From assembly GCF_023148685.1 (NCBI RefSeq), contig NZ_JAHXNL010000003.1, positions 164,379 to 228,378 on the forward strand: 64,000 nt of DNA. Reading direction: 5' to 3'. A program made the position numbers and the translations under genes. The notes under the pieces are model-generated. The model made no database searches. It saw only the letters and a list, made by a program, of their open reading frames with translations, and was not told where the DNA came from. This DNA comes from Georgenia sp. EYE_87 (GTDB lineage Bacteria; Actinomycetota; Actinomycetes; Actinomycetales; Actinomycetaceae). The stretch's first letter is position 1. Every line of letters starts with the position of its first letter. Shown one piece after another: positions 14,288 to 64,000 of the stretch.

Positions 14288-14704
14288 TCAGCAGCAGCCG
14301 GTGCCGCCGCAGCAGCCACCGGACTCCTGGGCGAGCCCGAGCTCGGCGCGGACGGCCGGTGCCGCGGTCAGCCCCAGCTCGGTGCGCCCGGCCGGCACCG
14401 GGGCCAGCTCGGCCCAGCGCGCGAGCTGATCACGGTCGGGGTAGCGCCCGGTCATCGCGACGGTGCCGTCCACGAGGACCAACGGAAGCCCCGCCGAGCC
14501 GGAGAGCTCGAGGAACTGCACGACGGCCGGGCGGCCGGCGAACGCCGTCGGCTCGCTCGCCAGGTTGTACCGGGCGACGTCGGCACCCTGCGAGCGGAGC
14601 CAGTCCAGGTCCGCGGTGAAGGTCACCAGCTCCTGCGGTACGTCCGTGCCGCAGACCCCGGTGCTGCAGCACATGGCTGGCTCGTAAACCTCGATGGCGC
14701 TCAT
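14288..14704 (-). CDS. arsD: Arsenite metallochaperone / trans-acting regulator ArsD
   Basis: A 138-residue ArsD. Cys12, Cys13 and Cys18 form the conserved CC-x4-C metalloid site, and the C-terminus ends in two vicinal Cys pairs (CCGGTGCC) as in E. coli plasmid R773 ArsD. ArsD binds arsenite/antimonite and passes it to ArsA, raising the affinity of the pump; it can also act as a weak repressor. AAGGAAG precedes the ATG. The gene is first in a tight arsD-arsA pair and follows the operator at 14721-14736. Confidence 0.95.
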   Translation of the reverse strand: MSAIEVYEPAMCCSTGVCGTDVPQELVTFTADLDWLRSQGADVARYNLASEPTAFAGRPAVVQFLELSGSAGLPLVLVDGTVAMTGRYPDRDQLARWAELAPVPAGRTELGLTAAPAVRAELGLAQESGGCCGGTGCC

Positions 14705-48732: not shown

Positions 48733-49800
48733 TCAGTTCGGCGCGACGTCCCCATTGTGCTGGGCGGCGCCGTGGGACGCGCCGGCGGCCGCGGTCGGCC
48801 GTGCGACGGCCTCCGGCCCGGCGATCGCGGGGTTGCGCAGCCCCCGGGCGCGCAGGTGCTCCAGGACGTCGAGGGCCGGGCGGTCCTGGTTGAAGGTGTA
48901 CAGGTGCAGCCCGGGCGCCCCTGCCGCGAGCACGCCGTCGATGAGGGCCAGCGTCGCGTCGATGCCGCGGCGGACGCGCTCCGCGTCGTCCTCGACCGCG
49001 AGCAGGGCGTCGAGCGACGGCGGCACCGGCACCCCGGTGAGCTGGGCGAGGCGGTGCAGCCGCCCCGGGTCGGTCATCGGGATGACCCCGGGCAGGATCG
49101 GGATGTGGATCCCGGCCTCGCGGGCGTCCACCACGAGGGACGCGTAGGCGCCGGCGTCGAAGAACACCTGCGTGATCGCGAAGTCGGCGCCCGCGTCCTG
49201 CTTCTCGTGCAGCGCCGCGAGCTCCGCCTCGCGGGTGTGGCTCGCGCCGGAGGGGTAGGCGGCGACGGCGACCGAGACGACGTCGGCGGGGGTGATCCCG
49301 AGGTCCTGGGCGACGACGGAGGGCGGCTCCGCCGTCGTCTCGCGTCCGCCGTCGGGCCGGGGGGCGCCCAGCCGCTCGTACTCGACCTCGCGGATCAGGC
49401 GGACGAGGTCGCTGGCCCGGCTCAGGCCGCCCGCGCACGGCACCCACTCGGTCTCGCCCGCCGGCGGGTCGCCGCGCAGCGCGAGGAAGTCGCGCACGCC
49501 GGCGTCGAGCAGGTTGCGCACGCGGTCCGCGAGCTCCTCGCGGGTGGCGCCCACGCAGGTCAGGTGCGCGATCGGCGGCACGGCGGTCTCCGCGAGCAGG
49601 CGGTGCACGAGCTCGGCGGAGGCGGTGCGGGAGGAGCCGGAGGCGCCGTAGGTCACCGAGAAGAAGTCGGGCCCGGCGTCGGCCATGCGGAGCACCCGCT
49701 GCCACACCGTCTCGACCAGCTCCGCCCGCCGGGGCGGGTAGAGCTCGAAGGAGACCGTCGGGTGGTCGGTGGGCACGGTCACGAGGCTAGACGTCGACAC
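48733..49800 (-). CDS. metF: Methylenetetrahydrofolate reductase
   Basis: A 355-residue MetF. The (beta/alpha)8 barrel shows VSFELYPPR at the start, FFSVTYGASGSSR, HLTCVG, FLALRGDPP (FAD/folate site) and PILPGVIPMTDP. A C-terminal extension of about 55 residues is Ala-rich and variable. It supplies 5-methyl-THF to MetE. Probable metF-metE operon; I see no clear riboswitch in the 490-bp upstream region. Confidence 0.92.
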   Translation of the reverse strand: MSTSSLVTVPTDHPTVSFELYPPRRAELVETVWQRVLRMADAGPDFFSVTYGASGSSRTASAELVHRLLAETAVPPIAHLTCVGATREELADRVRNLLDAGVRDFLALRGDPPAGETEWVPCAGGLSRASDLVRLIREVEYERLGAPRPDGGRETTAEPPSVVAQDLGITPADVVSVAVAAYPSGASHTREAELAALHEKQDAGADFAITQVFFDAGAYASLVVDAREAGIHIPILPGVIPMTDPGRLHRLAQLTGVPVPPSLDALLAVEDDAERVRRGIDATLALIDGVLAAGAPGLHLYTFNQDRPALDVLEHLRARGLRNPAIAGPEAVARPTAAAGASHGAAQHNGDVAPN

Positions 49801-50062
49801 CGCTGATCACACTCCATCGCACCTGGCGTGAGCACCTTCCTGCGGCGACGGCGGGCGTCCCCGAGGGGGTTGCTGCGGCGTCACGGAGCCAGGACTCTCG
49901 GCCGCTCTGGATGGTCAGCGTCGATCATGGCGGATCGGGCGGGGCGGGCGGGCACCGCGCCGCGGAGGTCCCACGGGCTGAGACCGGCGCCGGCCCGGGA
50001 GCGGCTGTCTGGACGCGGTGGTCGGTCGCCCGGGCGATCAGCCGGACGCGGACGGTGGAGAG

Positions 50063-50158
50063 AGCCGGTCGAGAAAGCGGCCGGTCAAGAGCACGGCCGG
50101 TCAAGAGCACGGCCGGTCAAGAGCACGGCCGGTCAAGAGCACGGCCGGTCGAGAAAGA
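50063..50158. repeat. Six tandem 16-bp repeats
   Basis: GGCCGGTCAAGAGCAC is exact at 50079, 50095, 50111 and 50127; variants with GTCGAGAAAG flank it at 50063 and 50143. The array passes directly into the hairpin at 50155. The period of 16 is not a multiple of three and no reading frame through it looks coding. Confidence 0.85.
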
Positions 50159-50212
50159 GGTCTCGTGCCGAACAAGAAGGTCCAAACCGGCTTGTTCGAC
50201 ACCAGACCTCTT
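50155..50212 (-). terminator. Large imperfect hairpin (22-bp arms) downstream of map
   Basis: Arms 50155-50176 and 50191-50212 pair over 22 positions with two mismatches around a 14-base loop. On the map strand it is followed by TCTTTCTC, so it may terminate map. The right arm carries the complement of GTCTGGTGTCG, the 11-mer seen in both 90-bp repeats at 30.4-30.6 kb. A dispersed palindromic repeat acting as terminator is a good reading. Confidence 0.65.
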
Positions 50213-50290
50213 GCTCGCACGCCGAGGCTCACGTTCGTGTCGGGGCGAGGCGGCGGCGAGATGTGCGGCGTTCTCCGGTCCGCGGGCGGC

Positions 50291-51061
50291 TCACCCGTTG
50301 CGGGCGGTGAGCACCACGGGACCGTCCTCCGTCACGGCGACCGTGTGCTCGGAGTGTGCGCCGCGCGAGCCGTCCTTGCTACGAAGCGTCCAGCCGTCGT
50401 CGTCGGTGTAGAGCTCGTCCGTGCCGGACATGAACCACGGCTCGATCGCGATGACCAGTCCCGGACGCAGCGGCAGCCCCCGGTGCGGACGGCCGTCGTT
50501 GGGCACGTGCGGGTCGCCGTGCATCGTGCGGCCGACGCCGTGCCCGCCGAACTGGGTGTTGACCCGGTAGCCGTAGGAGGCGGCCACCCCGCCGATGCGG
50601 GCGGAGATGTCGCCGATCCTGTTGCCCACGACGGCGGTCTCGATCGCCGCGTCGAGGGCGGCCTCCGTGGCCTCGATGACCTTCAGGTCCTCCGGCCGCG
50701 GGCGGCCGACCACCACGCTGAGCGCGGAGTCCGCGACCCAGCCGTCGATGCTGGCCGCGAAGTCGACCGAGAGGAGGTCACCGTCCCGCAGCGCGTAGTC
50801 GTGGGGCAGCCCGTGGAGCACCGCGTCGTTGACCGAGGTGCACAGCACGTGGCCGAACGGGGAGGCGCCGAAGGAGGGGTGGTAGTCGATGTAGCAGGAC
50901 TCGGCGCCACGCTCGCGGATCATGTCGTGAGCCAGGGCGTCGAGCTCGAGGAGGTTGACGCCGACGGTGGCCTTCTCCTTCAGGGCGGTCAGCACGTCGG
51001 CGACGAAGGAGCCGGCCGGGCGCATGGCCTCGATCTCGGCGGGGGTCTTGAGGTCGATCAC
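50291..51061 (-). CDS. map: Methionine aminopeptidase type I
   Basis: A 256-residue MAP without an N-terminal zinc or SH3 extension. All metal ligands are in context: LHGLPHDYAL (substrate His), SVDFAASIDGWVADS (two Asp), GGHGVGRTMHGDPHV (His), AIEPWF (Glu) and HTVAVTEDG (Glu region). It removes the initiator Met from new proteins. GTG 51061 is the start, with TTGGGG upstream; the longer frame is not supported. Confidence 0.92.
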   Translation of the reverse strand: MIDLKTPAEIEAMRPAGSFVADVLTALKEKATVGVNLLELDALAHDMIRERGAESCYIDYHPSFGASPFGHVLCTSVNDAVLHGLPHDYALRDGDLLSVDFAASIDGWVADSALSVVVGRPRPEDLKVIEATEAALDAAIETAVVGNRIGDISARIGGVAASYGYRVNTQFGGHGVGRTMHGDPHVPNDGRPHRGLPLRPGLVIAIEPWFMSGTDELYTDDDGWTLRSKDGSRGAHSEHTVAVTEDGPVVLTARNG

Positions 51062-51253
51062 GGCCCCAAGGCTAGGCCAGCGTCGCCCGTCCGAACTTGT
51101 GGGTCCGCGGCACACAGGAGCGCAGGGAGAATGTGGAGCGCGTGACGTGGCCCTGCGGGGAATGTCTTTCTAGCGTGTTTACATGGTTGAGCAGAAATGC
51201 GGCGGCGGACGGACGCACCGGCGAGCGCTCTCACGTCGGGCCTGACCGTGTCG

Positions 51254-52435
51254 ATGCTGTCGGGCGTGCGGGTCCTGGAATTCACTCACTACATCGCCGG
51301 ACCCTACTGCGGGCAGACACTGGCCGATCTCGGTGCGGAGGTCATCAAGGTCGAACCGCCTGCGGGCGAGGCGTCACGCTCGGCCGAACCGATGCATCGG
51401 GGCCGCAGCCTCTACTACGCCGCGATGAACCGCAACAAGCAGGCGGTGACCCTGAACCTCAAGCACGACGACTCCCGTGCCGTCGTGCGGGATCTCGTGG
51501 AGCGCTCCGACGTGGTGCTCACCAACTACGCGTACGGGGTCCCGGAGCGTCTCGGCCTGGACTACGAGACGCTGCGGGGCTACCGGGAGGACATCGTCGT
51601 CGCGCACATCACGGGGTTCGGGAGCACCGGCCCGCTGCGGGAGAAGGTCTCCTTCGACGGAATCGTGCAGTCCATGTCCGGCCTGGTGGACCTCACCGGA
51701 TTTCCCGACGGCCCGCCGGTCAAGGCAGGCCTCTTCGTCTCCGACCACGTCGCCGCCCTCCACGCGACCATCGGGATCCTGGCCGCGCTCTACCGGCGAC
51801 AGGTGACCGGGAGGGGCGAGTTCGTCGACGTGTCCCTGCTCGACTCGACGTTGTCGATGTTCGCCTACAACCCTTCCTACGTCTCGGCGATGGGCTCGGT
51901 GCCGTCACGCGGAGGGAATCGCAGCGCAAACGCCTTCGCGTCGGTCTTCCCCACGAAGGACGGCGGGTACGTCTACCTGGCCCCGATGTCGCCGGCGATG
52001 TGGGCGGGACTGATGCAGCTGATCGGCCGGAGCGAGTACGGCGAGCCGCATCACGAGTACGCCGACCCGGCGGCCCGGCTCCGTGACTACGACCAGCTCG
52101 AGGCCGCCATCAGCGAGTGGACCCGGCAGCACAGCAGTGCGGAGGTCCTGTCGCTGCTCGAGGAGCGGCGGATCGCCTGCGGACCGGTCCGGACGGTGGA
52201 CGAGCTGTTCGACGACCCCCAGGTCCGCGAGCGCCAGATGCTCGCTGAGGTGGACTACGACGGGGTGACGGCGACCGTACCGGGCAGGGTCGTGAAGTTC
52301 ACGAGCCAACGGCAGGTCGCGGCCCCTGCCCGGGACGTGGCGAAGACGGTGGGGGCGGACAACGAGGCGGTCTACAGCGCACTCGGCCTGCGCGACGCCG
52401 ATCTCGCAGCCCTCCGGGACCGGCGCGTGATCTAA
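51254..52435 (+). CDS. CaiB/BaiF-type class III CoA-transferase
   Basis: A 393-residue family III CoA-transferase. It begins MLSGVRVLEFTHYIAGPYCGQTLADLGAEVIKVEPP, the family's hallmark, and the presumed catalytic Asp is D135 in SFDGIVQSMSGLVDLTG. Starts GTG 51248 and ATG 51197 are alternatives. It would activate a carboxylic acid as CoA ester. It opens the catabolic cluster and is followed by a regulator, alcohol dehydrogenase and aldehyde dehydrogenase that could generate its acid substrate. Confidence 0.9.
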   Translation: MLSGVRVLEFTHYIAGPYCGQTLADLGAEVIKVEPPAGEASRSAEPMHRGRSLYYAAMNRNKQAVTLNLKHDDSRAVVRDLVERSDVVLTNYAYGVPERLGLDYETLRGYREDIVVAHITGFGSTGPLREKVSFDGIVQSMSGLVDLTGFPDGPPVKAGLFVSDHVAALHATIGILAALYRRQVTGRGEFVDVSLLDSTLSMFAYNPSYVSAMGSVPSRGGNRSANAFASVFPTKDGGYVYLAPMSPAMWAGLMQLIGRSEYGEPHHEYADPAARLRDYDQLEAAISEWTRQHSSAEVLSLLEERRIACGPVRTVDELFDDPQVRERQMLAEVDYDGVTATVPGRVVKFTSQRQVAAPARDVAKTVGADNEAVYSALGLRDADLAALRDRRVI

Positions 52436-52537
52436 GAATGAATTCGTGCTTATGTTCCGCGCACACTCAACCTGCCCGGGGAATGGTGTTAACCGGGGAC
52501 ATGGTCAGCCATTTACCTGTGTCCTACGTTTGAGCCC

Positions 52538-54469
52538 ATGGACAGGCTCGTTGCCCTGAGGCCAAAGGCGGACGCGGGGGCGGAAGACTTCATGGCCGAG
52601 TTTCTCGACCTGCTGACGCGAGAGGCTCGCGCCGTCGAGTTCGAGGGGCCGGTGATCTCCGCCAGGGCCGCCGGGCTGCCGCCCGAGGTGCTGGTCAAGA
52701 TCGAGAGGGCGAAGAACCAGGCGCTGCGGGTGCGCGCCAGCCAGCGCCACCGGCGGCGCCGGGAGCGCGAGCTCTCTGCGCTGTTCGAGACCGTGCACGA
52801 CCTGGCGGCGCTCAAGGACGTGGACGACGTGCTGGAGGCCATCGTCGCCCGGGTCCGCCAGCTGCTCGGCTCCGACGCCGCCTACCTGACCCTGCGTGAC
52901 GCCGAGCACGACGTCGCCTACGAACGGGTGACCGACGGCATCCTGACGCCGGAGTTCCGGGCCATGCGGCTGCCGTCGGGCGAAGGCCTGGGGGGCGCCG
53001 TGGCGAGCAGCGGCTCGCCGCTGTGGACCGACGACTACTTCGCCGACCAGCGCTTCACGCACCCCGAGTCGGTGGACGCCGCCGTCCGCTCCGAGGGGCT
53101 GACCGCCATCCTCGGGGTGCCGATGCTCCTGGGCAGGCAGGTCATCGGCGTGCTCTACGCGGCCAACCGGTCGCCGCGTGCGTTCTCCCGCGACGACGTC
53201 AACCTGCTCGTCTCCCTCGCCGCGCACGCGTCGGTGGCGATCGACAACGCCCGGCTGCTCACCGAGACCCGCTCGGCCCTGGCCGACCTCAAGACGACCA
53301 GCACCCTGCTCGAGCACCACATCGGCGGCATCGAGAAGGCGTCGGACGCGCACGACCGGCTGGCCGACCTGGTGCTGCGCGGCGGCAGCGTGCACGACGT
53401 CGTCCACGAGATCCGGGAGGTGCTCGGCGGCCGGGTCCACGTGCTGGAGCCCGACGGGACCGAGCTCGCCGGAAGCCCCCGGTCGGCCCCGCTGACGCCC
53501 GAGCAGATCGACGAGGCGACCCGCTCGATCACCGAGAACCAGACCCTGGTGGACGCGGGCTGGTGCGCGACCCCGGTCCGTATCGGCACCGAGCCGAGTG
53601 CGGCGCTCGTGCTCGACCGCGAGAGCCCCGTGGACCACGTGACGCGCCGGATCCTCGAGCGCGCCGCGACGGTGACCGCGCTCCTGCTCCTGATCCGCCG
53701 CTCGGTCGCGGACACCGAGAGTCGGCTGAGAGGCGACCTGCTGGCCGAGCTCGTCATGAGCGACGGCACCGTCGACGAGGCACGGCACGACCGCGCGCGG
53801 CGGCTGGGCGTCGACCTGGATGCCGCGCACGTCGTCGTCGTGGCAGACCTGCAGGGTCAGCGCTCGCAGCTCCACCAGGCCGCCGAGCGCCTGGTGGCCG
53901 CCGAGCACGGACTGTCGACCGTGCTCGGGCGCCGCCTCGTGGTCCTGCTCCCCGGCACCGACCCGCGCGCGGCCGGGAAGCTCGTGGCGCGGGCCCTCGC
54001 CCCCGTCGCCAAGGACGTGACCGTCGGCGTCGCCGGACCGGTGAGCGGCACCGAGGAGCTGGTGCGAGGCCACGGCGAGGCCTCGCGCTGCGTCGAGGTG
54101 CTGCTGGCCCTCGGCCGGGGCGGTGACGTCTCCACCGTCGCCGACCTCGGGTTCGCCGGGCTGCTGCTCGGTGGGGCCATGAAGGTGGACGAGTTCGTCG
54201 GCGAGCAGCTCGGCCCGGTACTGGAGTACGACAGGAAACGGGGGACCAAGCTCGTCCGCACCCTGCAGACCTACTTCGCCCGCGGGCAGCACGTCGCCCA
54301 GGCCGCCGCGGACCTGCACGTCCACCCCAACACCGTCGGCCAACGGCTCGAACGGATCACCCGGCTCCTCGGACCGTCCTGGAACGAGCCCGAGCGTCAG
54401 CTGGAGATCCGCCTGGCGCTGGCGCTGGCACCCCTGCTGGATCGGTCCCGATCGGCAGACGGACGATGA
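52538..54469 (+). CDS. GAF-domain PucR/CdaR-family transcriptional regulator
   Basis: A 643-residue regulator. Residues ~75-250 form a GAF domain (LEAIVARVRQLLGSDAAYLTLRD, with GEGLGGAVASSG); a helical middle region follows; the C-terminal HTH_30 (about 575-635) reads TLQTYFARGQHVAQAAADLHVHPNTVGQRLERITRLLG, the PucR signature. It probably activates the catabolic genes on sensing substrate. Its stop overlaps the alcohol dehydrogenase start (ATGA). Confidence 0.88.
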   Translation: MDRLVALRPKADAGAEDFMAEFLDLLTREARAVEFEGPVISARAAGLPPEVLVKIERAKNQALRVRASQRHRRRRERELSALFETVHDLAALKDVDDVLEAIVARVRQLLGSDAAYLTLRDAEHDVAYERVTDGILTPEFRAMRLPSGEGLGGAVASSGSPLWTDDYFADQRFTHPESVDAAVRSEGLTAILGVPMLLGRQVIGVLYAANRSPRAFSRDDVNLLVSLAAHASVAIDNARLLTETRSALADLKTTSTLLEHHIGGIEKASDAHDRLADLVLRGGSVHDVVHEIREVLGGRVHVLEPDGTELAGSPRSAPLTPEQIDEATRSITENQTLVDAGWCATPVRIGTEPSAALVLDRESPVDHVTRRILERAATVTALLLLIRRSVADTESRLRGDLLAELVMSDGTVDEARHDRARRLGVDLDAAHVVVVADLQGQRSQLHQAAERLVAAEHGLSTVLGRRLVVLLPGTDPRAAGKLVARALAPVAKDVTVGVAGPVSGTEELVRGHGEASRCVEVLLALGRGGDVSTVADLGFAGLLLGGAMKVDEFVGEQLGPVLEYDRKRGTKLVRTLQTYFARGQHVAQAAADLHVHPNTVGQRLERITRLLGPSWNEPERQLEIRLALALAPLLDRSRSADGR

Positions 54470-55611
54470 CCGAGGAGCAGCAGATGGACATCTTCGCCCT
54501 GCCCGCCGAGGGCGCCGACGTGGTCACGCTGACCTGGCCGACCCCGCAGCCTCGCGGCCACGAGGTGCTCCTGGAGGTCAGGCAGACCGGCGTCTGCCAC
54601 ACCGACATGCACCTGCGGGAGGGCGGCTACGACCTGGGCAGCCGGGGCTTCCTGCGCATGTCGACCCGCGGGGTCACCTTCCCGCTCGTGGCCGGGCACG
54701 AGATCCTCGGCGAGGTCGTCGCCGTCGGCCCGGACGTCGCGACCGTGCGCCGGGGCGACGTGCGGCTCGTCTACCCGTGGCTGGGGTGCGGCGAGTGCGG
54801 GCACTGCCGGGTCGGCCGGGAGAACTACTGCGCCGACGGGCAGATGCTGGGGATCCAGCGGTTCGGCGGCTTCGCGCGGCAGGTCCACGTGCCGCACGAG
54901 CGCTACCTGCTGGACACCACCGGCCTCGACGAGCCCTGGGCGGCCACCCTGGCGTGCTCGGGACTGACCTCCTACTCCGCCGTCAGCAAGGTGATGCCCC
55001 TGGACCCGGAGGACTGGGTCGCCGTCATCGGCACGGGTGGCGTCGGTCTAATGGCCGTCGCTGTGCTCAGGGCGCTGGACCACCGCGCGATCGCGGTGAT
55101 CGACGTCAACGACGACCGGCTCGCGCTGGCCATGGGCATGGGCGCCCGGATCGCGATCAACTCCTCCGCCGGCCTCGGGTCCGCAGACGTGGTGACCCGG
55201 CTCGGCGGCCCGTTGATCGCCGCGGTCGACTTCGTCAACAGCGGCCAGACCGCCGACCTGGCGTTCGGTGCGCTGGCCAAGGGCGGGACGCTGGTCAGCG
55301 TCGGGCTCTTCGGCGGGGAGGTCACGATCCCGACCGCCCTGGTGGCCATCAAGTGCCTGACCATCCGGGGAAGTTTCGTCGGCACGCTCGCCGAGCTGGA
55401 GGAGCTGATCGCGCTCGCCCGACGGGGCGGCCTGCCGCAGACCCCGGTGATCGGCGGCGAGCTCGGGGCCGATGCCCTCAACGCCGCCCTGGACGCCCTG
55501 GCCGCCGGCACCGTCCGGGGACGGATCGTCCTGTCCCAGCCTGGCGCGCCCACGCCGGCGTCCGTCGGCCGCCACGCCCGGGACCAGAGCCCGACGACCG
55601 GAGAGGTGTGA
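54466..55611 (+). CDS. Zinc-dependent alcohol dehydrogenase
   Basis: A 381-residue medium-chain dehydrogenase. Catalytic zinc ligands are in TGVCHTDMH and AGHEILGEV; the structural zinc site is CGECGHCRVGRENYC (four Cys). The Rossmann motif is VIGTGGVGLMAVAVL. It oxidises an alcohol to an aldehyde with NAD(P). Translationally coupled to the PucR regulator and followed after one base by the aldehyde dehydrogenase. Confidence 0.92.
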   Translation: MTEEQQMDIFALPAEGADVVTLTWPTPQPRGHEVLLEVRQTGVCHTDMHLREGGYDLGSRGFLRMSTRGVTFPLVAGHEILGEVVAVGPDVATVRRGDVRLVYPWLGCGECGHCRVGRENYCADGQMLGIQRFGGFARQVHVPHERYLLDTTGLDEPWAATLACSGLTSYSAVSKVMPLDPEDWVAVIGTGGVGLMAVAVLRALDHRAIAVIDVNDDRLALAMGMGARIAINSSAGLGSADVVTRLGGPLIAAVDFVNSGQTADLAFGALAKGGTLVSVGLFGGEVTIPTALVAIKCLTIRGSFVGTLAELEELIALARRGGLPQTPVIGGELGADALNAALDALAAGTVRGRIVLSQPGAPTPASVGRHARDQSPTTGEV

Positions 55612-55612
55612 C

Positions 55613-57079
55613 ATGACGCTCGACCGCGAGTTCACGATGACGATCTGTGGCGAGCCCGCCCGGGGAGACCTGGAGCCCCTCCTGGTGGTCGACCCGGCGA
55701 CCGAGCAGGTGATCGCATCGGCTCCCCGGGCCGGCCGCGGCCAGCTCGACCTGGCCGTGCAGGGCGCCCGTGACGCCCAGCCGGCGTGGGCCGCGACACC
55801 GGTGGCGGAACGCAAGAACGTCGTCCGGCAGCTGGCCGGCCGGATCACCGAGCACGCGGACGAGCTGGCGACGCTGCTCACCCAGGAGCAGGGCAAGCCG
55901 CGCACCAACGCCCGGACCGAGGTCGTGCGCGCCGCCCAGTGGATCCGGTCGCTCGCGGATCTCGAGATCGACGACGTCGTGGTGGTCGACGACGCCGACA
56001 GGGTGGTCACCGTCCGGCGCGTCCCGCTGGGCGTGGTAGGGGCCATCGTGCCGTGGAACTTCCCGGTGAGCCTGGCGCTGTGGAAGGTGGGTCCCGCGCT
56101 GCTGACGGGCAACACGATCGTCCTCAAGCCCTCGCCCAACACCCCGCTGACCGGGTTGGTGCTCGGCGAGCTGGCTCGGGACGTCGTGCCTGCCGGCGCG
56201 CTGAGCGTGGTCACGGGCGGGGACGAGCTCGGCCCGTGGATGACCGCCCATCCCGGGATCGACAAGATCGCCTTCACCGGCTCCACCGAGACCGGCAAGC
56301 GGGTGATGGCCTCGGCCGCGCAGCACCTAGCCCGGGTGACCCTGGAGCTGGGCGGGAACGATCCCGCCATCGTCATGCCCGACGTGGACGTGGCCGCGAC
56401 GGCGGAGAAGCTGTTCTGGGCCTGTTTCAACAACTCCTCCCAGTACTGCCTCGCCACGAAACGGCTGTACGTCCACGACGAGATCTTCGAGGAGTTCGCG
56501 CACCACCTCGCCAGGGTCGCCGCGGACGTGAGGATCGGCAACGGCATGGACGAGGGGGTCCAGCTCGGCCCGCTGCAGAACCGCCGGCAGTACGAGGTGG
56601 TGCAGGACTTCATCGCCGAGTCCCGGGAGCGTGGCGACGAGTTCCTCGTCGAGGTCCCCGTCGACCACGACGCCGGCTACTTCGTCGGCCCGGTCGTCGT
56701 GGGGCGGCCGCCCGAGGACTCCCGGCTGGTCACCGAGGAGCCGTTCGGCCCTATCGTGCCCATGCTGTCCTTCACCGACGTCGATGACGTGGTGGCCCGC
56801 GCCAACGACAGCCGCTACGGCCTCGGCGCGTCGGTGTGGAGCGCGGACTACGCCCGTGCGGAGGAGATCGCCCGGCGCCTCGGCTCCGGGGTGGTCTGGG
56901 TCAACGAGGTGCAGGTGCTGTCTCCGTTCTTCCCGATGGGCGGCCACCGTCAGTCGGGGATCGGCCGGGAGAACGGGGTCGAGGGGCTGCTGGAGTACAC
57001 CAACACGCAGTCCCTCTCGGTCCGCAAGGGACCGGCCTCGGCGCCGCGGCAGGCGGCGGCGCGCGCCGCGCTCAGGTGA
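55613..57079 (+). CDS. Aldehyde dehydrogenase
   Basis: A 488-residue ALDH. The cofactor loop is GAIVPWNFPVSLALWKVGPALLTGN; catalytic Glu in LELGGNDPAIV (about 250) and catalytic Cys in SSQYCLATKR (about 283). GGAGAGG precedes ATG 55613. It oxidises the aldehyde made by the preceding enzyme to an acid, which the CoA-transferase can activate. Confidence 0.92.
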   Translation: MTLDREFTMTICGEPARGDLEPLLVVDPATEQVIASAPRAGRGQLDLAVQGARDAQPAWAATPVAERKNVVRQLAGRITEHADELATLLTQEQGKPRTNARTEVVRAAQWIRSLADLEIDDVVVVDDADRVVTVRRVPLGVVGAIVPWNFPVSLALWKVGPALLTGNTIVLKPSPNTPLTGLVLGELARDVVPAGALSVVTGGDELGPWMTAHPGIDKIAFTGSTETGKRVMASAAQHLARVTLELGGNDPAIVMPDVDVAATAEKLFWACFNNSSQYCLATKRLYVHDEIFEEFAHHLARVAADVRIGNGMDEGVQLGPLQNRRQYEVVQDFIAESRERGDEFLVEVPVDHDAGYFVGPVVVGRPPEDSRLVTEEPFGPIVPMLSFTDVDDVVARANDSRYGLGASVWSADYARAEEIARRLGSGVVWVNEVQVLSPFFPMGGHRQSGIGRENGVEGLLEYTNTQSLSVRKGPASAPRQAAARAALR

Positions 57080-57089
57080 GGCGCCCGGC

Positions 57090-57890
57090 TCACCGCCGCC
57101 TGACCGTGGTGTCGAGCCGCCAGCGGCCGTCGAAGACCGGCTCGACCCTGTCGACGTAGGCCTGCCTGGCGGCCATCGCGTCCGTGGCGAGGTTGACGGC
57201 GGCGGCCCGGCCCTCGTTGTCCAGCGCCGCCTGCAGGCTCTGCGTGGCGGCCTGGTTGAGCATCGCCTTGGTCTGCGCGAGAGCGACCGGTGGCCCGGCC
57301 ACGAGCTGGCTGGCCAGGTCGTCGACGAACCGGTCGATCTCCTCCGCCGGCCGGACCCAGGTGACCAGTCCGATCCGGAGGGCCTCGTCCGCGTCGATGA
57401 TCTCGGCCAGCAGGGCCAGGCGTTTGGCCTGCAGCAGCCCCATTGTGCGCGGCAGCAGCCAGGTGCCCCCGAAGTCCGGGGACAGGCCGCGCCGGGCAAA
57501 GATCTGCGAGAACCTTGCGTCCGGGGTGCAGACGACGAAGTCCGCGGCGATGGCGAGGTTGCAGCCGGCTCCGACCGCCACGCCGGACACCTGGGCGATC
57601 ACGGGCTTGGGCAGGTCGATGAGGAGCGCCGCCGTGGCGGCGAGCCACCGCATGCGGTCCACCGGGTGGCCCGCGCGCCGCGGGCTTCCGACGTCCGCAC
57701 CGGAGCAGAAGTCACCGCCGGCGCCGGTCAGCACGACGGCGCGGACGCGCGCGTCCTCGCCGGCGTCCGCCAGCTGGTCGTGCAGGAGCTGGATCGTCGC
57801 GTCGTCCAGCGCGTTCTTGCGGTGCGGTCGGTTGATCGTCAGCGTCAGCACGGCGTCCGTGCGGGTGACGAGCAGGGTCTCCTCAGGCAC
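57090..57890 (-). CDS. Enoyl-CoA hydratase/isomerase (PaaG-like active site)
   Basis: A 266-residue crotonase-fold enzyme. Oxyanion-hole peptides are GGDFCSGADV and GVAVGAGCNLAIAAD. Where hydratases have Glu-Glu, it has GLSPDFGGTWLLPR with an Asp, the arrangement of PaaG-type delta-isomerases, so isomerase activity is more likely than hydration. It is the last gene of the leftward operon and overlaps the MaoC gene by eight bases. Confidence 0.88.
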   Translation of the reverse strand: MPEETLLVTRTDAVLTLTINRPHRKNALDDATIQLLHDQLADAGEDARVRAVVLTGAGGDFCSGADVGSPRRAGHPVDRMRWLAATAALLIDLPKPVIAQVSGVAVGAGCNLAIAADFVVCTPDARFSQIFARRGLSPDFGGTWLLPRTMGLLQAKRLALLAEIIDADEALRIGLVTWVRPAEEIDRFVDDLASQLVAGPPVALAQTKAMLNQAATQSLQAALDNEGRAAAVNLATDAMAARQAYVDRVEPVFDGRWRLDTTVRRR

Positions 57891-58356
57891 CGCTTCCTCC
57901 GTCAGGGATGAATCGGCGCACCGTCTCGGCGACGCACGCCGGCCGGGTGCCGCCGTCGACCCACACGGTCAGGCGGACGACGGCCTGGGTCGCTCCGCCG
58001 GAGCCGGGTTCGGCCGAGACCAGCTCCACGTCGGCGCGGATGCGTGAGCCGACCGGGACCGGGGCCGGAAAGCGGACACGGTCGAGCCCGTAGTTCACGG
58101 CGGCAGTCACGCCCCGCACCTCGTAGACCTGCGCGGCCAGCATCGGCAGCAGCGAGAGCAGGAGGTAGCCGGGCGCCACCGGACCTCCGTAGGGGCCGGA
58201 CGCGGCACGCTCGCGGTCGACGTGGATCCACTGCCGGTCCCCGGTGACGTCGGCGAAGGCGTCGACCATGCCCTGGTCGACGGTCACCCAGCCGCTGAGC
58301 CCGAGGTGCTCTCCGGTGGCCGTCACCAGATCGCCGACGGAGGTGAAGGTCCTCAT
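57883..58356 (-). CDS. MaoC-like (R)-specific enoyl-CoA hydratase
   Basis: A 157-residue hot-dog-fold protein. The hydratase motif ADVTGDRQWIHVDRERA carries the catalytic Asp and His, followed by GPYGGPVAPGYLLLSLLP. It would add water across a trans-2-enoyl-CoA. Start ATG 58356 shares one base with the SDR stop. It, the SDR and the crotonase-fold enzyme can form a short beta-oxidation route. Confidence 0.9.
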   Translation of the reverse strand: MRTFTSVGDLVTATGEHLGLSGWVTVDQGMVDAFADVTGDRQWIHVDRERAASGPYGGPVAPGYLLLSLLPMLAAQVYEVRGVTAAVNYGLDRVRFPAPVPVGSRIRADVELVSAEPGSGGATQAVVRLTVWVDGGTRPACVAETVRRFIPDGGSGA

Positions 58357-59096
58357 CAGATGTGTCGGCCGCCGGAGACCTCGAGCACCGTACCGGTCAT
58401 GTAACTCGACAGGTCGCTCGCCAGGAACACCACGACGCTGGCGACCTCGTCGACCTCCCCGGGCCGGCCCATCGGTATCTCGGCGATCTTTGCCTCCTTC
58501 ACGTGCTCCGGCATGGCGTCGGTCATGGCGGTCCTGATGTACCCGGGCTGGATCGCGTTGACCCGCACGTTCCGGAACGCCACCTCCTTCGAGGCGGCCT
58601 TCGTCAGGCCGACGATCCCCGCCTTCGCGGCTGAGTAGTTGGTCTGGCCCACCATGCCGACCTTGCCGGAGATCGAGGAGACGTTGACGATCGAGCCGCC
58701 GCCGCGCTCCCGCATCCGCGCCGCCGCCGCTCGGGTGCCCAGCCAGCAGCCCCTGAGGTGCACCGCGACGACGTCGTCGAAGTCCTGCTCGGTCATCCTC
58801 CGCATGGTGGCGTCGCGGGTCATGCCGGCGTTGTTGACCATGATGTCGACCGGCCCGAACGCGTCCTCGGCGGCGTCGAGGGCGGCTTCGACGTCGGCCG
58901 CCGCCCGGACGTCGCAGCCGACGGCGCAGGCCACCTCCGCACCGCCGAGCTTCTCGACCGCGGCGGCCGCACCGAGCCTGTTGAGATCCGCCACGACCAC
59001 CGTGGCACCCTCGCGGACGAATGCCTGCGCGATCGCCAGGCCGATGCCCTGGGCGGCGCCCGTGACGACAGCCACCCTGCCCTCCAGCAGTCCCAT
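58356..59096 (-). CDS. Short-chain dehydrogenase (FabG-like)
   Basis: A 246-residue SDR with TGAAQGIG cofactor motif, NNAG and the catalytic Tyr-x3-Lys in YSAAKAG; it ends [12 protein letters not shown]. Members reduce or oxidise 3-oxoacyl/3-hydroxyacyl thioesters. Its ATG lies one base before the livM-type stop, so it is translationally linked to the transporter. It probably oxidises the 3-hydroxyacyl-CoA made by the MaoC enzyme. Confidence 0.92.
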
Positions 59097-59097
59097 G

Positions 59098-60129
59098 TCA
59101 GTCCTTCTCCTGGTCGCTCGAGCGGGCCCGCCGGTGCTCGTCGCGGCGGTGGATCCAGTCCCGGGCGGTGCCCCACACGCCCTTGCGGAACAGAAGGATG
59201 ATCAGGACGAACACCGCGCCGGAGATGATCCCGATGCCGTCGAAGCCGGACGAGGCGAGGTAGTCCTCGAGGATGACGATGAGGATGGCTCCGACCACGC
59301 CGCCCCAGAGAGTGCCGATGCCGCCGAGGACGGTGAGCAGCACGATCTTCCCCGAGGTCGTCCAGTTGACCTCCTGGAGCGAGACGAAGCCGTGGCTGAC
59401 GGCGAACAGGCCGCCGGCCAGCCCGGCGAGACCGGCCGAGAGGACGAAGACGATCACCCGATATCTCTCGACGTCGTAACCGAGGGAGCGAGCCCGCGCG
59501 GGATTGTCCCGGGTGGCGACCAGCACCTTCCCGAACGGCGAGTGCACGATCCGCCAGGCGATCCACATGCCGAGGGCGATGACCGGCAGGGCGGCGTAGT
59601 AGAAGTAGAACGGGTCGGTCTCGACGGCACTGATCCCGAAGAAGTGCTTCGGGACCCCCTGCAGACCGTTCTCCCCGCCGGTGACGTCGCGCCACTGGTT
59701 GGTGAGGAAGAAGAGCATCTGGGCGAACGCCAGCGTGACCATCGCGAAGTAGATCCCGGAGCGTCGCACCGACAGGTAGCCGATGGGCAGCGCCAGCAGC
59801 ATGGCGACGACGGCGCCGGCGAGCACCGCCACCGGGAACGGTGCGCCGACACTCAGCGAGATCAGGCCGGTGGCGTACGCGGAGCCGCCCCAGAAGGCCG
59901 CGTGACCGAACGACAGCAGCCCGCCGTAGCCGAGCAGCAGGTCGAGGGCGACCGCGGCCAACGCCCAGCACGCGATGTCGAAGGCGACCGGCGGGTACAC
60001 GAACCACGGCAGAGCCAGGGCCACGACCAGCGCCGAGGCGAGGAACGCCCATCTGCGGCCGTTGCGGCCGGCCCTCATCTGCCGGTGCTCATAGACGGTG
60101 TCGACCTCGAGCTGCGTGTCGGCGGTCAT
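59098..60129 (-). CDS. livM: Branched-chain-type ABC transporter permease (LivM)
   Basis: A 343-residue permease with 8-10 predicted helices: [28 protein letters not shown] and [28 protein letters not shown] are typical LivM landmarks. A ~20-residue polar N-terminus precedes the first helix. ATG 60129 overlaps the livH stop (ATGA). It forms the channel with LivH. Confidence 0.93.
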
Positions 60130-60995
60130 GAAGCCTCCTCCCTGCCGAACAGGCCCGCGGGCCGCACCAGCACCACGAGGGCCATCAGGACGAAGATCAG
60201 GATCTGGGCGAAGGTGGGGGCGTAGGCCTGCCCGAACGCCTCCACCAGGCCCACGAGGAACCCGGCGACCACGGCTCCGACGATGGAACCCAGGCCGCCG
60301 ATCACGACCACGGCGAAGAGGATGATCGCGAAGCTGGTACCCATGTCCGCGGTGACCGCCCGGAACGGTGCCGCGAGCACCCCGGCGAGACCGGCCAGCG
60401 CAATGCCGAACCCGAACACCGGGGTGACCCACCGGCTGACGTCGATCCCCAGGGCCCGGGTCAGCTCCGACCTCTCGGTGGCGGCACGCACAATCGTCCC
60501 CACGCGGGTGCGGGTCATCACCAGCCACACCGCAAGGCACACCAGGACGGAGAAGGCCAGCACGAACACCTGGTAGATCGGCAGCCGCACGTCGAGCACC
60601 GAGATCTGACCGCGGAGGATCTCCGGCGGGGTGTAGGGCAGTCCCGAGACGCCGTAGCGGCGCTTGACGAGGTCGACCAGCACCAAGGACAGCCCGAACG
60701 TGAGCAAGAAGTTGTACAGCGGGTCGAGGGCGACCAGCCACCTGACCAGCAGCCGCTCCACCACCACGCCGAATAGGAACATCAGGAGCGGGACCACGAG
60801 CAGAGCCAGCCAGAAGCTCAGGCCCACGACGTCGAGCAGCACGGCCGCGGCGACCGCGCCGAGCATGTAGCAGGCACCGTGGGCGAAGTTCACCACGCCG
60901 AGCACTCCGAAGATCACCGCAAGACCCAGGGCCGCCAGGGCGTAGAAGCTGCCCGCGGCCAACCCCTGCACCGCGTACTGCGCGATCGCGTTCAT
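60126..60995 (-). CDS. livH: Branched-chain-type ABC transporter permease (LivH)
   Basis: A 289-residue permease: AIAQYAVQGLAAGSFYALAALGLAVIFGVLGVVNFAHGA at the N-terminus and IILFAVVVIGGLGSIVGAVVAGFLVGLVE in the C-terminal part are LivH hallmarks. GGGAGGG precedes ATG 60995. It follows the binding-protein gene by 40 bases. Confidence 0.93.
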   Translation of the reverse strand: MNAIAQYAVQGLAAGSFYALAALGLAVIFGVLGVVNFAHGACYMLGAVAAAVLLDVVGLSFWLALLVVPLLMFLFGVVVERLLVRWLVALDPLYNFLLTFGLSLVLVDLVKRRYGVSGLPYTPPEILRGQISVLDVRLPIYQVFVLAFSVLVCLAVWLVMTRTRVGTIVRAATERSELTRALGIDVSRWVTPVFGFGIALAGLAGVLAAPFRAVTADMGTSFAIILFAVVVIGGLGSIVGAVVAGFLVGLVEAFGQAYAPTFAQILIFVLMALVVLVRPAGLFGREEAS

Positions 60996-61036
60996 TCGTC
61001 CCTCCCGTGGAAGCTGGCCGCGCCGTCGTCGGTCCG

Positions 61037-62296
61037 TCAGCCGGCCATGTCGCAGCCCGCGGCCTGGGCCTCCTCGACGGTCCGGAACGCCTCCTCGGCG
61101 GGGATGGTCTCGACGATGTCCACGTAGTCCCACTCCTCCGTGACCTCGTCCGCGCCCTTGACCTCGGCCAGGTAGACGTCATGGATGACTCGGTGGTCCT
61201 CGGCGCGGATCTTGCCGTTGCGCAGGAACATGTCGTCGATCTCCTTGCCCTCGAGGTGGCCGACGATGGTGTCGGCGTCGTCGGTGGCCTCGGCCTGCAC
61301 CGCCTCGAGGTACTGGAGGGCCGCGGAATAGTCACCGGCCTGTCCGGAGGAGGGCCGCGCACCGGTCACCTCCTCGAACCGGTCCGCCCACTCGCGGGTC
61401 TCCTCGTCGAGGTTCCAGTACCAGGGCTCGGTGTAGATCACGTTCTCGAACTTGTCGACGCCCAGGGAGTGGATGTCGTAGAGGAACATGAGCCCGACGG
61501 CGAGAGTCGTGTCGCCGTTCTGCAGCCCTGCCTCGTTGTACTGCTTGACCAGGTTCACCAGGTCGCCGCCCGCGTGCATCGTCCCGATGACGTCGGCGTC
61601 GGTGCTCGCGGCCTTCGTCAGGAAGGTGGCGAAGTTGTCGTTCGGGAACGGGGTGGCGATGTGTCCGCTCACGGTGCCCCCGGCGTCCTCGATCGCCTGG
61701 GTGAACGACTTGTCCATGTCCTGGCCGAACGCGTAGTCGGGATAGATGATCTGCCAGTTCTTGCCGCCGTTCCTGGTCACCGTGGTGCCGGTGCCCTTGG
61801 CGAGCATCGCGGTGTCGTAGGACCAGTGGAAGGTGTACTTGTTGCACTGGGCGCCGGTCAGCTCGGTCGTGCCGGCTCCGACGTTGATGAACAGCTTCTT
61901 CTTGCTCTCCGCCTGGGTGGCCACCGCCAGGGCCGCGGACGACGTCGGCACGTCGATGATGACGTCGGCCTGCCGCCGGTCGTAGAGCTCCTGGGCCTGC
62001 GTGTTGGCGACGTCCGGCTTGTTCTGGTGGTCCGCGCTGACCACGGAGATGTCCTCGACGACGGCGTCGTCGCCGTACTTGGCCTTGAAGTCCTCCACCG
62101 CCATCTCGGCGGCCTTGACCGCGTTGGGACCGGCGACGTCCTTGTAGACGCCGGTGGCGTCGTTCAGGACCGCGATGACGACCTTGTCGTCGGTGAACGA
62201 CGCCTCGCCGCTCGCCGGTCCCGCGGCGCCGCAGGCGGTGAGCACCATGGCACCGCCGGCGAGCAGTGCCGGGCCGACCAGGATTTTGCTGTTCAT
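61037..62296 (-). CDS. Branched-chain-type substrate-binding lipoprotein
   Basis: A 419-residue periplasmic-binding-protein-fold lipoprotein. The signal ends VLTACGAAG (Cys at residue 22). Family segments: LNDATGVYKDVAGPNAVKAAEMAVEDF, IIDVPTSSAALAVATQ, and DYAFGQDMDKSFTQAIEDAGG. LivJ/AmiC-like proteins bind amino acids, amides, urea, aromatic acids or alcohols; the ligand cannot be read here but is probably the substrate of the adjacent oxidative genes. AAGGGAG precedes ATG 62296. Confidence 0.92.
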   Translation of the reverse strand: MNSKILVGPALLAGGAMVLTACGAAGPASGEASFTDDKVVIAVLNDATGVYKDVAGPNAVKAAEMAVEDFKAKYGDDAVVEDISVVSADHQNKPDVANTQAQELYDRRQADVIIDVPTSSAALAVATQAESKKKLFINVGAGTTELTGAQCNKYTFHWSYDTAMLAKGTGTTVTRNGGKNWQIIYPDYAFGQDMDKSFTQAIEDAGGTVSGHIATPFPNDNFATFLTKAASTDADVIGTMHAGGDLVNLVKQYNEAGLQNGDTTLAVGLMFLYDIHSLGVDKFENVIYTEPWYWNLDEETREWADRFEEVTGARPSSGQAGDYSAALQYLEAVQAEATDDADTIVGHLEGKEIDDMFLRNGKIRAEDHRVIHDVYLAEVKGADEVTEEWDYVDIVETIPAEEAFRTVEEAQAAGCDMAG

Positions 62297-62376
62297 GGAG
62301 GACTCCCTTATCGCTTCGTGAACTTGTCTGTTGACGTGGTGGGCGCTCGCACGGTTCTGGGTCGGGGTTCGATCGG

Positions 62377-63069
62377 TCACAGTCCGAGATAGGTCAAGAG
62401 CTCTCCCTGGCGGCGGTGGAACTCCTCGGAGCCCAGGCTCTCCACCAGCCTTCCCTCCGCCAGGACGTAGTGACGGTCGGCGACGGTGGCGGCGAACTTC
62501 ACGTTCTGCTCCACGAGCAGGACGGTCCGGCCCTGCGCCTTGACCTTCAGGAGGATCTCCCGGATCTGCTGGACGACGACGGGGGCCAACCCCTCCGTCG
62601 GCTCGTCGAGGAGAAGCAGCCGGGCGCCGGTGCGGAGCACGCGGGCGATGGCGAGCATCTGCTGCTCGCCGCCGGAGAGCGTGGCGCCGCCTGCCCGCCG
62701 GCGGTCGGCCAGCGCGGGAAAGGCGTCGTAGACGCGCGCCAGGGGCCAGGCCTCGTCGGAGACGACGGGGGGCAGCAGGAGGTTCTCCTCCACGGTGAGG
62801 CTGGAGTAGATGCCGCGGTCGTCCTGCACCCACCCCATGCCCAGGCGCGCTCGCCGGTGCGGGGCCTGCTGGGAGATCTCCTCGCCGTCGAGCAGGATGG
62901 AGCCCTCGAGGTGGCGGTGGAGGCCGACAAGGCTGCGGAGCAGCGTGGTCTTGCCGGCGCCGTTGCGGCCGACGAGGGTGACGACCTCACCCTCGCGGAC
63001 CGTCAGGGTGACCCCGTGGAGAGCCTGCGCCTCGCCGTAGTAGGCCCGTAGGTCGCGCACCTCAAGCAT
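62377..63069 (-). CDS. livF: Branched-chain-type ABC ATPase (LivF)
   Basis: A 230-residue ATPase: Walker A GRNGAGKTTLLRSL, Q-loop GWVQDDRGIY, signature LSGGEQQMLAIARVL, Walker B LLLDEPTEGLAPVVV and H-loop VLLVEQNVKF. Length and LSGGEQQM signature match LivF. Overlaps the LivG gene by eight bases. Confidence 0.94.
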   Translation of the reverse strand: MLEVRDLRAYYGEAQALHGVTLTVREGEVVTLVGRNGAGKTTLLRSLVGLHRHLEGSILLDGEEISQQAPHRRARLGMGWVQDDRGIYSSLTVEENLLLPPVVSDEAWPLARVYDAFPALADRRRAGGATLSGGEQQMLAIARVLRTGARLLLLDEPTEGLAPVVVQQIREILLKVKAQGRTVLLVEQNVKFAATVADRHYVLAEGRLVESLGSEEFHRRQGELLTYLGL

Positions 63070-63844
63070 GGCTCTCCACCCCGAGGTAGGCCGCGATCAC
63101 GCGCTCGTCGTTGCGTACCTGCTCGTAGGTGCCATGCGTGAGCACCCGGCCGGCCTGCATGACGGTCACCTGGTGCGCCAGCGACCCGACGACGTGCATG
63201 TTGTGGTCGACGAGCACCACGGTGCGGTCCGCCGAGATCCGACGGACCAGCTCGATCGTGCGGTCCACGTCCTCGAGGCCCATCCCGGCGGTCGGCTCGT
63301 CCAGCAGCATGACGCCGGGGTCGAGCGCCAGCACCAGCGCCATCTCGAGGGCCCGCTTCTGCCCGTAGGACAGCGTCGCGGAGCGGCGGTCAGCCTGCCG
63401 GGCGAGCCCGACCTCCTCGAGCAGCTCGTCGGCGCGCGGCCGGTAGACGCGCATGACACGGTCCGAGCGCCAGAACCGGAGCCCGCCGCTGCCGCGCCGC
63501 CCCTGCAGGGCCAGCTCGACGTGCTCCCGGGGGGTGAGGTTCTCGAAGAGGCTGGTGATCTGGAACGACCGGGCCACCCCCTTGCGTGCGATGCGGTCGG
63601 GCTCCTGCCCGGTGATGTCTTCGCCCGCCACACGGATGGTGCCGGAGGTCGGCCTGATGAATCCGGTCAGCAGGTTGAACAGGGTCGTCTTGCCGGCACC
63701 GTTAGGACCTACCAGCGCGTGTATCTCTCCGCCGGCGACGTCAAGGTCCACATTGTTGACCGCAGTGAATCCGCGAAAGCTCTTGGTGAGCCCCCGCGTC
63801 GAGAGCGCCATCGGTGCGGCGCCGCTGGGCAGTTCTCCGGGCAT
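63062..63844 (-). CDS. livG: Branched-chain-type ABC ATPase (LivG)
   Basis: A 260-residue ATPase with Walker A GPNGAGKTTLFNLL, Walker B VMLLDEPTAGM, and ARSFQITSLFENLT and YEQVRNDERVIAAYLG, all typical of LivG. In place of the usual LSGGQ the signature reads LSYGQKRALEMAL, as in LivG. Start ATG 63844 is chosen; ATG 63811 is an alternative and the longest frame is not supported. First gene of the leftward operon. Confidence 0.92.
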   Translation of the reverse strand: MPGELPSGAAPMALSTRGLTKSFRGFTAVNNVDLDVAGGEIHALVGPNGAGKTTLFNLLTGFIRPTSGTIRVAGEDITGQEPDRIARKGVARSFQITSLFENLTPREHVELALQGRRGSGGLRFWRSDRVMRVYRPRADELLEEVGLARQADRRSATLSYGQKRALEMALVLALDPGVMLLDEPTAGMGLEDVDRTIELVRRISADRTVVLVDHNMHVVGSLAHQVTVMQAGRVLTHGTYEQVRNDERVIAAYLGVESHA

Positions 63845-64000
63845 GTCAGAAACCGTAGGGAGGTGTCGTCGGGCGACCAATGTCCGGGCGGTCATAAAAC
63901 GGCCGTTCGGCATGTGTGACCGTCCACTGCCCGCACAGCGCCGGTGATGTCTCGTCAATTGATGCATTTCTCGCCATGGCATGCGGGACATGCCGGTCGG
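63845..64000. other. Upstream region of the leftward catabolic operon (window end)
   Basis: No gene is seen. It should hold the promoter of the livG-to-crotonase operon. A TCAATTGA palindrome lies at about 63955-63962. I see no convincing -35/-10 pair, and the window ends here. Confidence 0.5.

Follow-up and report, generated by a model that had tools for sequence, protein, structure and literature searches.

The DNA analysed here, referred to as the window, is a 64,000-nucleotide stretch of the 4.35-Mb genome of Georgenia sp. EYE_87 (G000; C23:164379-228378), and the subject of this report is a cluster of 12 genes near its right-hand end that combines a Liv-type ATP-binding cassette (ABC) importer with enzymes of acyl-coenzyme A (acyl-CoA) metabolism. 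Positions are those of the window unless a contig is named. Profile searches established that all 12 genes are real, with family matches far above chance, and every component that an earlier note on this DNA had named (importer, short-chain dehydrogenase, MaoC hydratase, PaaG-like isomerase, CoA-transferase, PucR regulator, alcohol and aldehyde dehydrogenases) was recovered in place with a strong match. The forward strand carries genes for a family III (CaiB/BaiF) CoA-transferase (CoAT; 51254..52435; PF02515, 385 bits; D164), a PucR-type regulator with GAF, GGDEF-like and HTH_30 domains (52538..54469; PF01590, PF17853 and PF13556), a zinc alcohol dehydrogenase of the medium-chain dehydrogenase/reductase (MDR) type (ADH; 54466..55611; PF08240/PF00107) and an aldehyde dehydrogenase (ALDH; 55613..57079; PF00171, 493 bits; C281 and E247), for which the next in-frame ATG was used as the start, position 55607 being no start codon. 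The reverse strand carries, in order of reading, genes for LivG-like (63062..63844) and LivF-like (62377..63069) ATPases, both identified by profile and homologous-locus matches, the importer substrate-binding protein (SBP; 61037..62296; PF13458, 292 bits; a lipoprotein to judge from a lipobox at C22, located by eye), a LivH-like permease (60126..60995; PF02653; matching livH of homologous loci at up to 85%), a LivM-like permease (59098..60129; PF02653; 57-80% to livM of homologous loci where matched), a FabG-like short-chain dehydrogenase (SDR; 58356..59096; NF004198, 359 bits, above the cut-off of 296; S140/Y154/K158), a MaoC-type 3-hydroxyacyl-thioester (de)hydratase (57883..58356; PF01575; D40/H45) and a PaaG-type (isomerase) crotonase (57090..57890; PF00378). 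Positions 63845..64000, at the very end of the window, hold the left portion of the intergenic stretch that separates livG from divergent genes lying past the window.

The two gene sets had been described as divergent. They are instead convergent, with stops at 57,079 and 57,090 and about 10 bases between the stop codons, and CoAT-PucR-ADH-ALDH (+) and livGF-SBP-HM-SDR-MaoC-crotonase (-) therefore have no common promoter. Within the reverse-strand set, livM ends at 59098 and the SDR gene starts at 59096, the SDR/MaoC, MaoC/crotonase, livG/livF and livH/livM pairs overlap by 1-8 bases, and gaps of about 80 and about 41 bases separate livF from the SBP gene and the SBP gene from livH. Such spacing, from overlaps of a few bases to gaps of about 100, points to one operon per strand, in keeping with the co-transcription of the liv genes with those for SDR, MaoC and isomerase that the note had proposed. 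No terminator was detected by a simple scan of the stretch where the two operons meet. Simple counts of palindromes and 8-mers upstream of livG revealed no common operator; the top palindrome, GTGACC-2 bases-GGTCAC, occurred in 7 regions, none of them focal.

Catalytic residues were found in every enzyme in which they were sought, the roles of these residues and motifs being those that we take the families to have. All 7 NCBIfam matches of the CoAT lay under their cut-offs (best: succinyl-CoA:mesaconate, 262 bits, cut-off 700; succinate--glutarate CoA-transferase, 233 bits, cut-off 750), so its subfamily was left unassigned; PF02515 and a candidate catalytic Asp, which we assume to be D164, place it in family III. 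The nearest structure to the ADH in the PDB was the NAD-dependent ADH 2eer (E = 2.8e-55). For the ALDH, none of the 25 NCBIfam matches shown reached its cut-off, the best being StyD (413 vs 850 bits). Alignment of the crotonase to the Thermus PaaG-like structures 6sl9/3hrx showed D139 in the place of the Asp of Thermus PaaG, whereas N111 and I130-F131 replace the hydratase glutamates at what we take to be the corresponding positions. With 164 bits against a TIGR02280 cut-off of 345, it is not PaaG itself; a PaaG-type crotonase with D139 kept nevertheless suits a 3-enoyl to 2-enoyl shift, which makes a β,γ-unsaturated acid a possible substrate. A phenylacetate-pathway reading of this gene was rejected, as PaaA and PaaC were unmatched in the genome. 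The MaoC protein was nearest to Rv0130 (2c2i, E = 3.6e-53), and by family both it and the SDR are presumably of the (R)-3-hydroxyacyl type. The SDR lacks a His and a Lys that fall in invariant columns of 3-hydroxybutyrate dehydrogenases (BDHs), where we presume them to be functional, and is 32% identical to the BDH of the paralogous cassette on contig C15 (see below); no TIGR01963 (BDH) match at E <= 1e-60 was found on contig C23.

Extension of the sequence beyond the window (L004, C23:227000-246999) added two forward-strand genes that are divergent from livG, given here in window-equivalent positions: an esterase of the tannase family whose N-terminus is signal-like (about 64090-65805, start set by eye; PF07519, 354 bits vs a cut-off of 29.8), followed by a thiolase (65852-67066; NF005890, 716 bits, above the cut-off of 580). 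About 2 kb separate the thiolase from the window end, and the earlier note, which saw neither a thiolase nor an acyl-CoA dehydrogenase and supposed that remaining genes might lie beyond 64 kb, was thus right about where to look for the former. Its remark on the latter stands: no acyl-CoA dehydrogenase is encoded near the cluster, and the 5 PF00441 matches lie elsewhere in the genome, the nearest at C23:291043, about 63 kb beyond the window. The esterase, which is apparently secreted, is the sole PF07519 match across nine Georgenia genomes. Its nearest solved structures were MHETase (E = 1.4e-45) and then feruloyl esterases B (6g21, best E = 9e-26), with which it shares PF07519 and the Ser-Asp-His triad; a structure model with a predicted local distance difference test (pLDDT) score of 39 was not used. 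The tannase family is characterised by a CS-D-HC motif (PMC7070470 and PMC6461665), and the active-site disulfide is more than 80% conserved across the family according to PMC6461665. In contrast to these enzymes, the focal esterase has G244 and A540 in place of the paired Cys, and all seven aligned tannase-family members linked to the importer cassette described below keep Ser245, Asp501 and His539 and lack both cysteines.

The binding protein was most similar to 3i09 in the PDB (E = 8e-93), and its AlphaFold model (pLDDT 89) gave 3i09 as the top Foldseek match at 42% identity; the title of 3i09 names no ligand, and acetoacetate, a possible ligand of that structure, carried no weight here. 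The five-gene architecture and fold are those of the Liv (HAAT family) branched-chain amino-acid importers. The differences are that the closest binding proteins with a solved structure are 3i09 and 3n0w rather than LivJ/LivK, and that hydroxy-acid genes adjoin the importer in about half of the homologous loci. The NCBIfam LivH and LivM models scored the focal permeases below cut-off. Homologous actinobacterial loci were taken as the best 80 of 249 from a collection scan (SBP 58-71% identical; 60 with full flanks), and they include the Georgenia genomes G126 and G133 (as L041 and L048). Of the 80, 41 carried a BDH with 55% or more identity to that of Georgenia, and each of these 41 also had a PucR match; a PucR homolog occurred in 47 in all, with the place and orientation of pucR varying among loci. 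All 40 BDHs scanned (39 of the 41, and the paralog of the focal genome) matched TIGR01963 at E <= 1e-80. In Knoellia and Janibacter (L054, L058 and L060), the BDH match begins 2 bases past the liv match, in the slot of the focal SDR. A tree of 86 SBP rows placed the focal protein in a group (SH-aLRT 94) whose members, the focal one among them, are linked to BDH in 15 cases and to a tannase in 7. Judged by its neighbours, the importer is disfavoured as a branched-chain amino-acid system, the case that the earlier note had set against its own proposal; the group to which it belongs appears to be widespread, undescribed and often located beside genes for the use of 3-hydroxybutyrate (3HB), a bioplastic monomer. 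Some of these loci may be decayed or affected by assembly error: the SBP match in L107 has a stop, the pucR matches in L112 and L114 are in pieces, and the BDH of G126 (C7:131618-132115) is partial.

Within the taxonomic family, an SBP match at E <= 1e-40 was obtained in 7 of 200 genomes, the focal genome and six others, all Georgenia. The focal genome carries a second copy on contig C15, 71% identical to the focal SBP, in which livGF-SBP-livHM is convergent with a BDH-PucR pair. The same cassette, defined as livGF-SBP-livHM with a GAF-PucR and a TIGR01963 dehydrogenase, occurs with PucR and a BDH-like SDR in the six other Georgenia genomes (partial in G126, where the BDH is below cut-off). 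The paralogous BDH of the focal genome scored 315 bits against the TIGR01963 cut-off of 307, and genes above this cut-off, each of them a cassette copy by its coordinates, were present in 6 of the 9 Georgenia genomes; five further matches in these genomes were below cut-off and located at another kind of locus. The focal cluster has the cassette gene order G-F-SBP-H-M with homologous SBP, permeases and ATPases, and its GAF-PucR gene faces the liv genes tail to tail, the arrangement of the Georgenia paralogs. Its SDR is FabG-like and it lacks a TIGR01963 dehydrogenase, so it is not a member of the cassette but a derived relative. The CoAT gene holds the slot of the BDH gene in the paralogous cassette, upstream of pucR and on the same strand. 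A separate set on contig C12 (C12:20000-39999, L122; about 2636-14399, open reading frames named by eye) comprises a Liv-type importer, 3-oxoacid CoA-transferase subunits, a thiolase and an AtoE-like permease, together with a gene resembling BDH that scores 292 bits, under the cut-off; it is likely an acetoacetate or short-acid cluster and may serve the acetoacetate route of the paralogous cassette.

Esterases recur beside the importer in other Actinomycetota. A tannase-family gene is present in 6 of the 80 loci, in each case beside livG and 47-49% identical to the focal esterase (tblastn), five of them in Nocardioides (divergent) and one in Actinomadura (same strand). Another esterase family, apparently secreted, was found in seven loci, next to livG in L079, L104, L107, L112, L114 and L115 and elsewhere in L103; the two members scanned were both above the PF10605 (3HB-oligomer hydrolase) and PF07519 cut-offs, and a remote similarity links this family to the focal esterase (best blastp E = 2e-9, 7 sequences compared). 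Short-chain-length polyhydroxyalkanoate (scl-PHA) depolymerases above cut-off were encoded in L115 (type 2) and L075 (type 1), both of which are BDH-linked. A PETase-like hydrolase gene (PF12740, 426 bits) lies within 9 kb of the 3HB-type cassette of Haloechinothrix aidingensis (L103:19833-20765).

A search of plasmid records yielded 305 with an SBP match, all below 60% identity, and 16 neighbourhoods (SBPs below 48% identity) were read. An annotated 3HB dehydrogenase gene directly precedes the importer genes in two of three Deinococcus plasmids, the third, that of D. ficus, having two alpha/beta hydrolase genes there. In plasmid p3 of Azospirillum sp. TSA2s (L128), the homologous importer is accompanied by a crotonase, MaoC, SDR, acetyl-CoA C-acyltransferase, Fe-ADH, AMP-binding ligase and thioesterase, a set that is independent of, and close to, the focal one. 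Family III CoA-transferases and other acyl-CoA enzymes are encoded nearby in Achromobacter insolitus, Cupriavidus oxalaticus and C. basilensis, the first two of which have no permease genes beside the SBP gene. A GMC oxidoreductase gene lies near the importer in Sinorhizobium, Paracoccus yeei and Rhizobium, the last also with mmsB; in the R. ruizarguesonis plasmid (L140, 12646-15132), the importer is followed by the GMC oxidoreductase and an annotated 3-hydroxyisobutyrate dehydrogenase, a further hydroxy-acid link. No hydroxy-acid or acyl-CoA set was seen in the neighbourhoods from Pseudosulfitobacter (epimerase), Azospirillum oryzae, Chelatococcus, Variovorax and Caballeronia (amidase), and in Xanthobacter the SBP gene stands alone, with mutase and ligase genes nearby. 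Hydroxy-acid or acyl-CoA genes are thus a common theme of this mixed wider family and not a general one.

Taken together, we give slightly more belief than doubt to the reading that the cluster serves the breakdown of a small hydroxy acid (likeliest a short 3-hydroxyacid, or a β,γ-unsaturated acid joining the same route) that would be freed from an ester by the apparently secreted tannase-family hydrolase. The esterase, whose family is clear from its profile match, would cut its ester outside the cell; the Liv-type importer, to judge from its phylogeny and neighbours, would take up the acid, and the family III CoAT would form the CoA thioester. The PaaG-type isomerase and MaoC hydratase would turn unsaturated forms into (R)-3-hydroxyacyl-CoA, which the FabG-like SDR would oxidise to 3-ketoacyl-CoA, and the thiolase would then release acetyl-CoA. 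ADH and ALDH could oxidise the alcohol moiety of the ester, or else a hydroxyl at the end of the freed compound, and the GAF domain of PucR may sense an intermediate. The sequence of import, oxidation, CoA activation, double-bond shift, hydration and oxidation that the earlier note had laid out fits the genes. Of the unknown alcohol or acid that it had named as substrate, the acid is retained, a small hydroxy acid being the best bet; an alcohol as the imported compound has no direct support, and the alcohol may instead be the ester's second half or enter the cell independently of the importer. The earlier observation is thus partly confirmed and its interpretation partly supported, with the esterase, the thiolase and an evolutionary origin added.

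As to that origin, the locus may be a rebuilt 3HB cassette in which the free-acid dehydrogenase was swapped for a CoA-transferase and a thioester-level dehydrogenase. The paralogous cassette would oxidise 3HB as the free acid and then activate the product, whereas the focal cluster would 'activate, then oxidise'; the comparison of the slot upstream of pucR, occupied by BDH in one and by CoAT in the other, is the main ground on which we infer a CoA-first route. In the derived version, a tannase-family enzyme would have taken the esterase slot and CoAT the BDH slot, with SDR, MaoC, isomerase, thiolase, ADH and ALDH added. The 3HB utilisation genes (TIGR01963 dehydrogenase, scl-PHA depolymerase and 3HB-oligomer hydrolase) resemble the focal system in having a homologous importer and PucR beside them in other Actinomycetota, and a homologous importer beside the dehydrogenase in the two Deinococcus plasmids; they differ in that the focal cluster lacks the TIGR01963 dehydrogenase and the PF10503 depolymerase and has CoAT, FabG-like SDR, MaoC, isomerase, thiolase, ADH and ALDH instead. 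For the wider family, it is tentatively proposed, as a serious possibility that falls a little short of probable, that the Liv-type cassette is a widespread importer for 3HB and kindred 3-hydroxyalkanoates, that its partners are secreted hydrolases of polyesters or oligoesters (depolymerases, 3HB-oligomer hydrolases and a tannase/MHETase branch without the disulfide), and that the focal locus was retargeted to another hydroxyalkanoate ester with a CoA-first route.

Several points weigh against the hydroxy-acid reading. The CoAT falls below every subfamily cut-off, and the isomerase would have no role if the substrate were a plain saturated 3-hydroxyacid. No CoAT match at E <= 1e-90 was found in the 393 other genomes of the class; with close relatives in its own genome only, out of 394, the link between the added enzymes and the importer comes from one genome. 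The plasmid matches of the CoAT that were listed are 35-41% identical, and among the matches listed between the focal DNA and the 8 other Georgenia genomes the stronger ones covered the MetAP flank, pucR and the liv genes, and patches elsewhere scored 230 bits at most. PF10503 depolymerase was unmatched in all 9 Georgenia genomes, so that a polyhydroxybutyrate-depolymerising life is not shown for the genus. Neither BDH nor tannase is encoded in 22 of the 60 full-flank loci, and BDH is found in only 2 of the 16 plasmid neighbourhoods, the others having a GMC oxidoreductase, an amidase, an epimerase or no such enzyme; in 3 of the 16, permease genes are absent beside the SBP gene. The focal SBP lies on a long branch (0.36), is contained in no starred set of the tree and departs from its 85 relatives at positions conserved in at least 93% of them: among other cases, all 85 have S where it has A55 and P where it has A234, 82 have H where it has Q319, and D322 is a further such change. 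The long branch and these changes mean that its exact ligand may have changed; the ligand family is likely kept.

Alternatively, the esterase may free a hydroxycinnamate or cinnamyl alcohol from a phenylpropenoid ester, which ADH and ALDH would convert to cinnamate and CoAT, hydratase, SDR and thiolase would shorten in its side chain (beta-oxidative deacetylation), with no need for an acyl-CoA dehydrogenase. The esterase family does include feruloyl esterases (6g21, E = 9e-26), the best NCBIfam match of the ALDH, although below cut-off, is the phenylacetaldehyde dehydrogenase StyD, and the SBP fold family includes 4-hydroxybenzoate binders, though at only 18-23% identity. Intradiol dioxygenase (PF00775) also accounts for 5 matches in the genome and the LigB family for one, so that the organism may be able to degrade aromatic rings; an argument against this alternative from absent ring-cleavage genes accordingly failed. 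We nevertheless consider it unlikely: the phylogeny and neighbours of the importer point to 3HB, the esterase is nearer to MHETase and lacks the family-typical paired cysteines, and hydroxycinnamate beta-oxidative pathways usually employ a CoA ligase. No hydroxycinnamoyl-CoA ligase was seen by eye among the open reading frames of window positions 49000-64000 and of L004, the part of the genome searched, which has a CoAT instead. Marginally less probable still is a locus for homoallylic alcohols or esters such as the leaf volatiles 3-hexenyl acetate and 3-hexenol, in which esterase, ADH and ALDH would yield a 3-enoic acid, CoAT, isomerase (3- to 2-enoyl), MaoC, SDR and thiolase would finish its breakdown, and the importer would serve the acid. 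Here each enzyme, the PaaG-type isomerase included, has a step, and acyl-CoA dehydrogenase is again unnecessary, but such volatiles should need no ABC importer, and the relatives of this importer are often 3HB-linked.

An omega-hydroxyacid or diol polyester (e.g. of 4-hydroxybutyrate or 6-hydroxyhexanoate) would give ADH and ALDH a dicarboxylate to form, CoAT a substrate to activate and beta-oxidation the remainder; the best CoAT matches, albeit below cut-off, are dicarboxylate enzymes, the esterase is MHETase-like, and the ADH presumably resembles 6-hydroxyhexanoate dehydrogenase. This route requires an acyl-CoA dehydrogenase, none of which is encoded nearby, and we regard it as slightly more improbable than either of the preceding two. 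Least probable is an ordinary branched-chain amino-acid importer beside unrelated enzymes of the fatty-acid type: the Liv architecture and the automatic names of homologous permeases agree with it, but livM, SDR, MaoC and crotonase genes overlap or abut, hydroxybutyrate neighbours are frequent, with BDH in about half of the loci, and the LivH and LivM models stay below cut-off.

The preferred hydroxy-acid reading can be compared with one importer of known function. According to a 2023 paper, hbtABC is the one confirmed bacterial 3HB importer; its likeness to the present system lies in the proposed substrate class, and it consists of three genes with an experimentally shown function, whereas the Liv-type importer has five and is predicted. 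Searches of open-licence PMC papers for a bacterial 3HB importer, PMC11374999 and PMC10130141 among them, brought up none recognisable, mostly from its listing, as reporting a Liv-type one, although some of the papers listed may contain one. If the cassette is a second 3HB importer, it would supply the link from polyester hydrolysis outside the cell to metabolism in the actinobacterial genera of the homologous loci, and 'branched-chain amino acid transporter' annotations such as those on the two BDH-bearing Deinococcus plasmids would be corrected. From the focal variant one would learn how exchanging the esterase and the first metabolic enzyme retargets a module, and hydroxyalkanoate esters may be the substrates of the tannase/MHETase-family branch that lacks the usual disulfide in its active site. 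The wider Liv-type cassette, apparently undescribed and widespread, is the more interesting and testable part.

Outside the cluster, a tandem array with a 16-base unit (4.8 copies, 98% match) lies at positions 50064-50154 of the window, between genes judged by eye to be metF-like and map-like.

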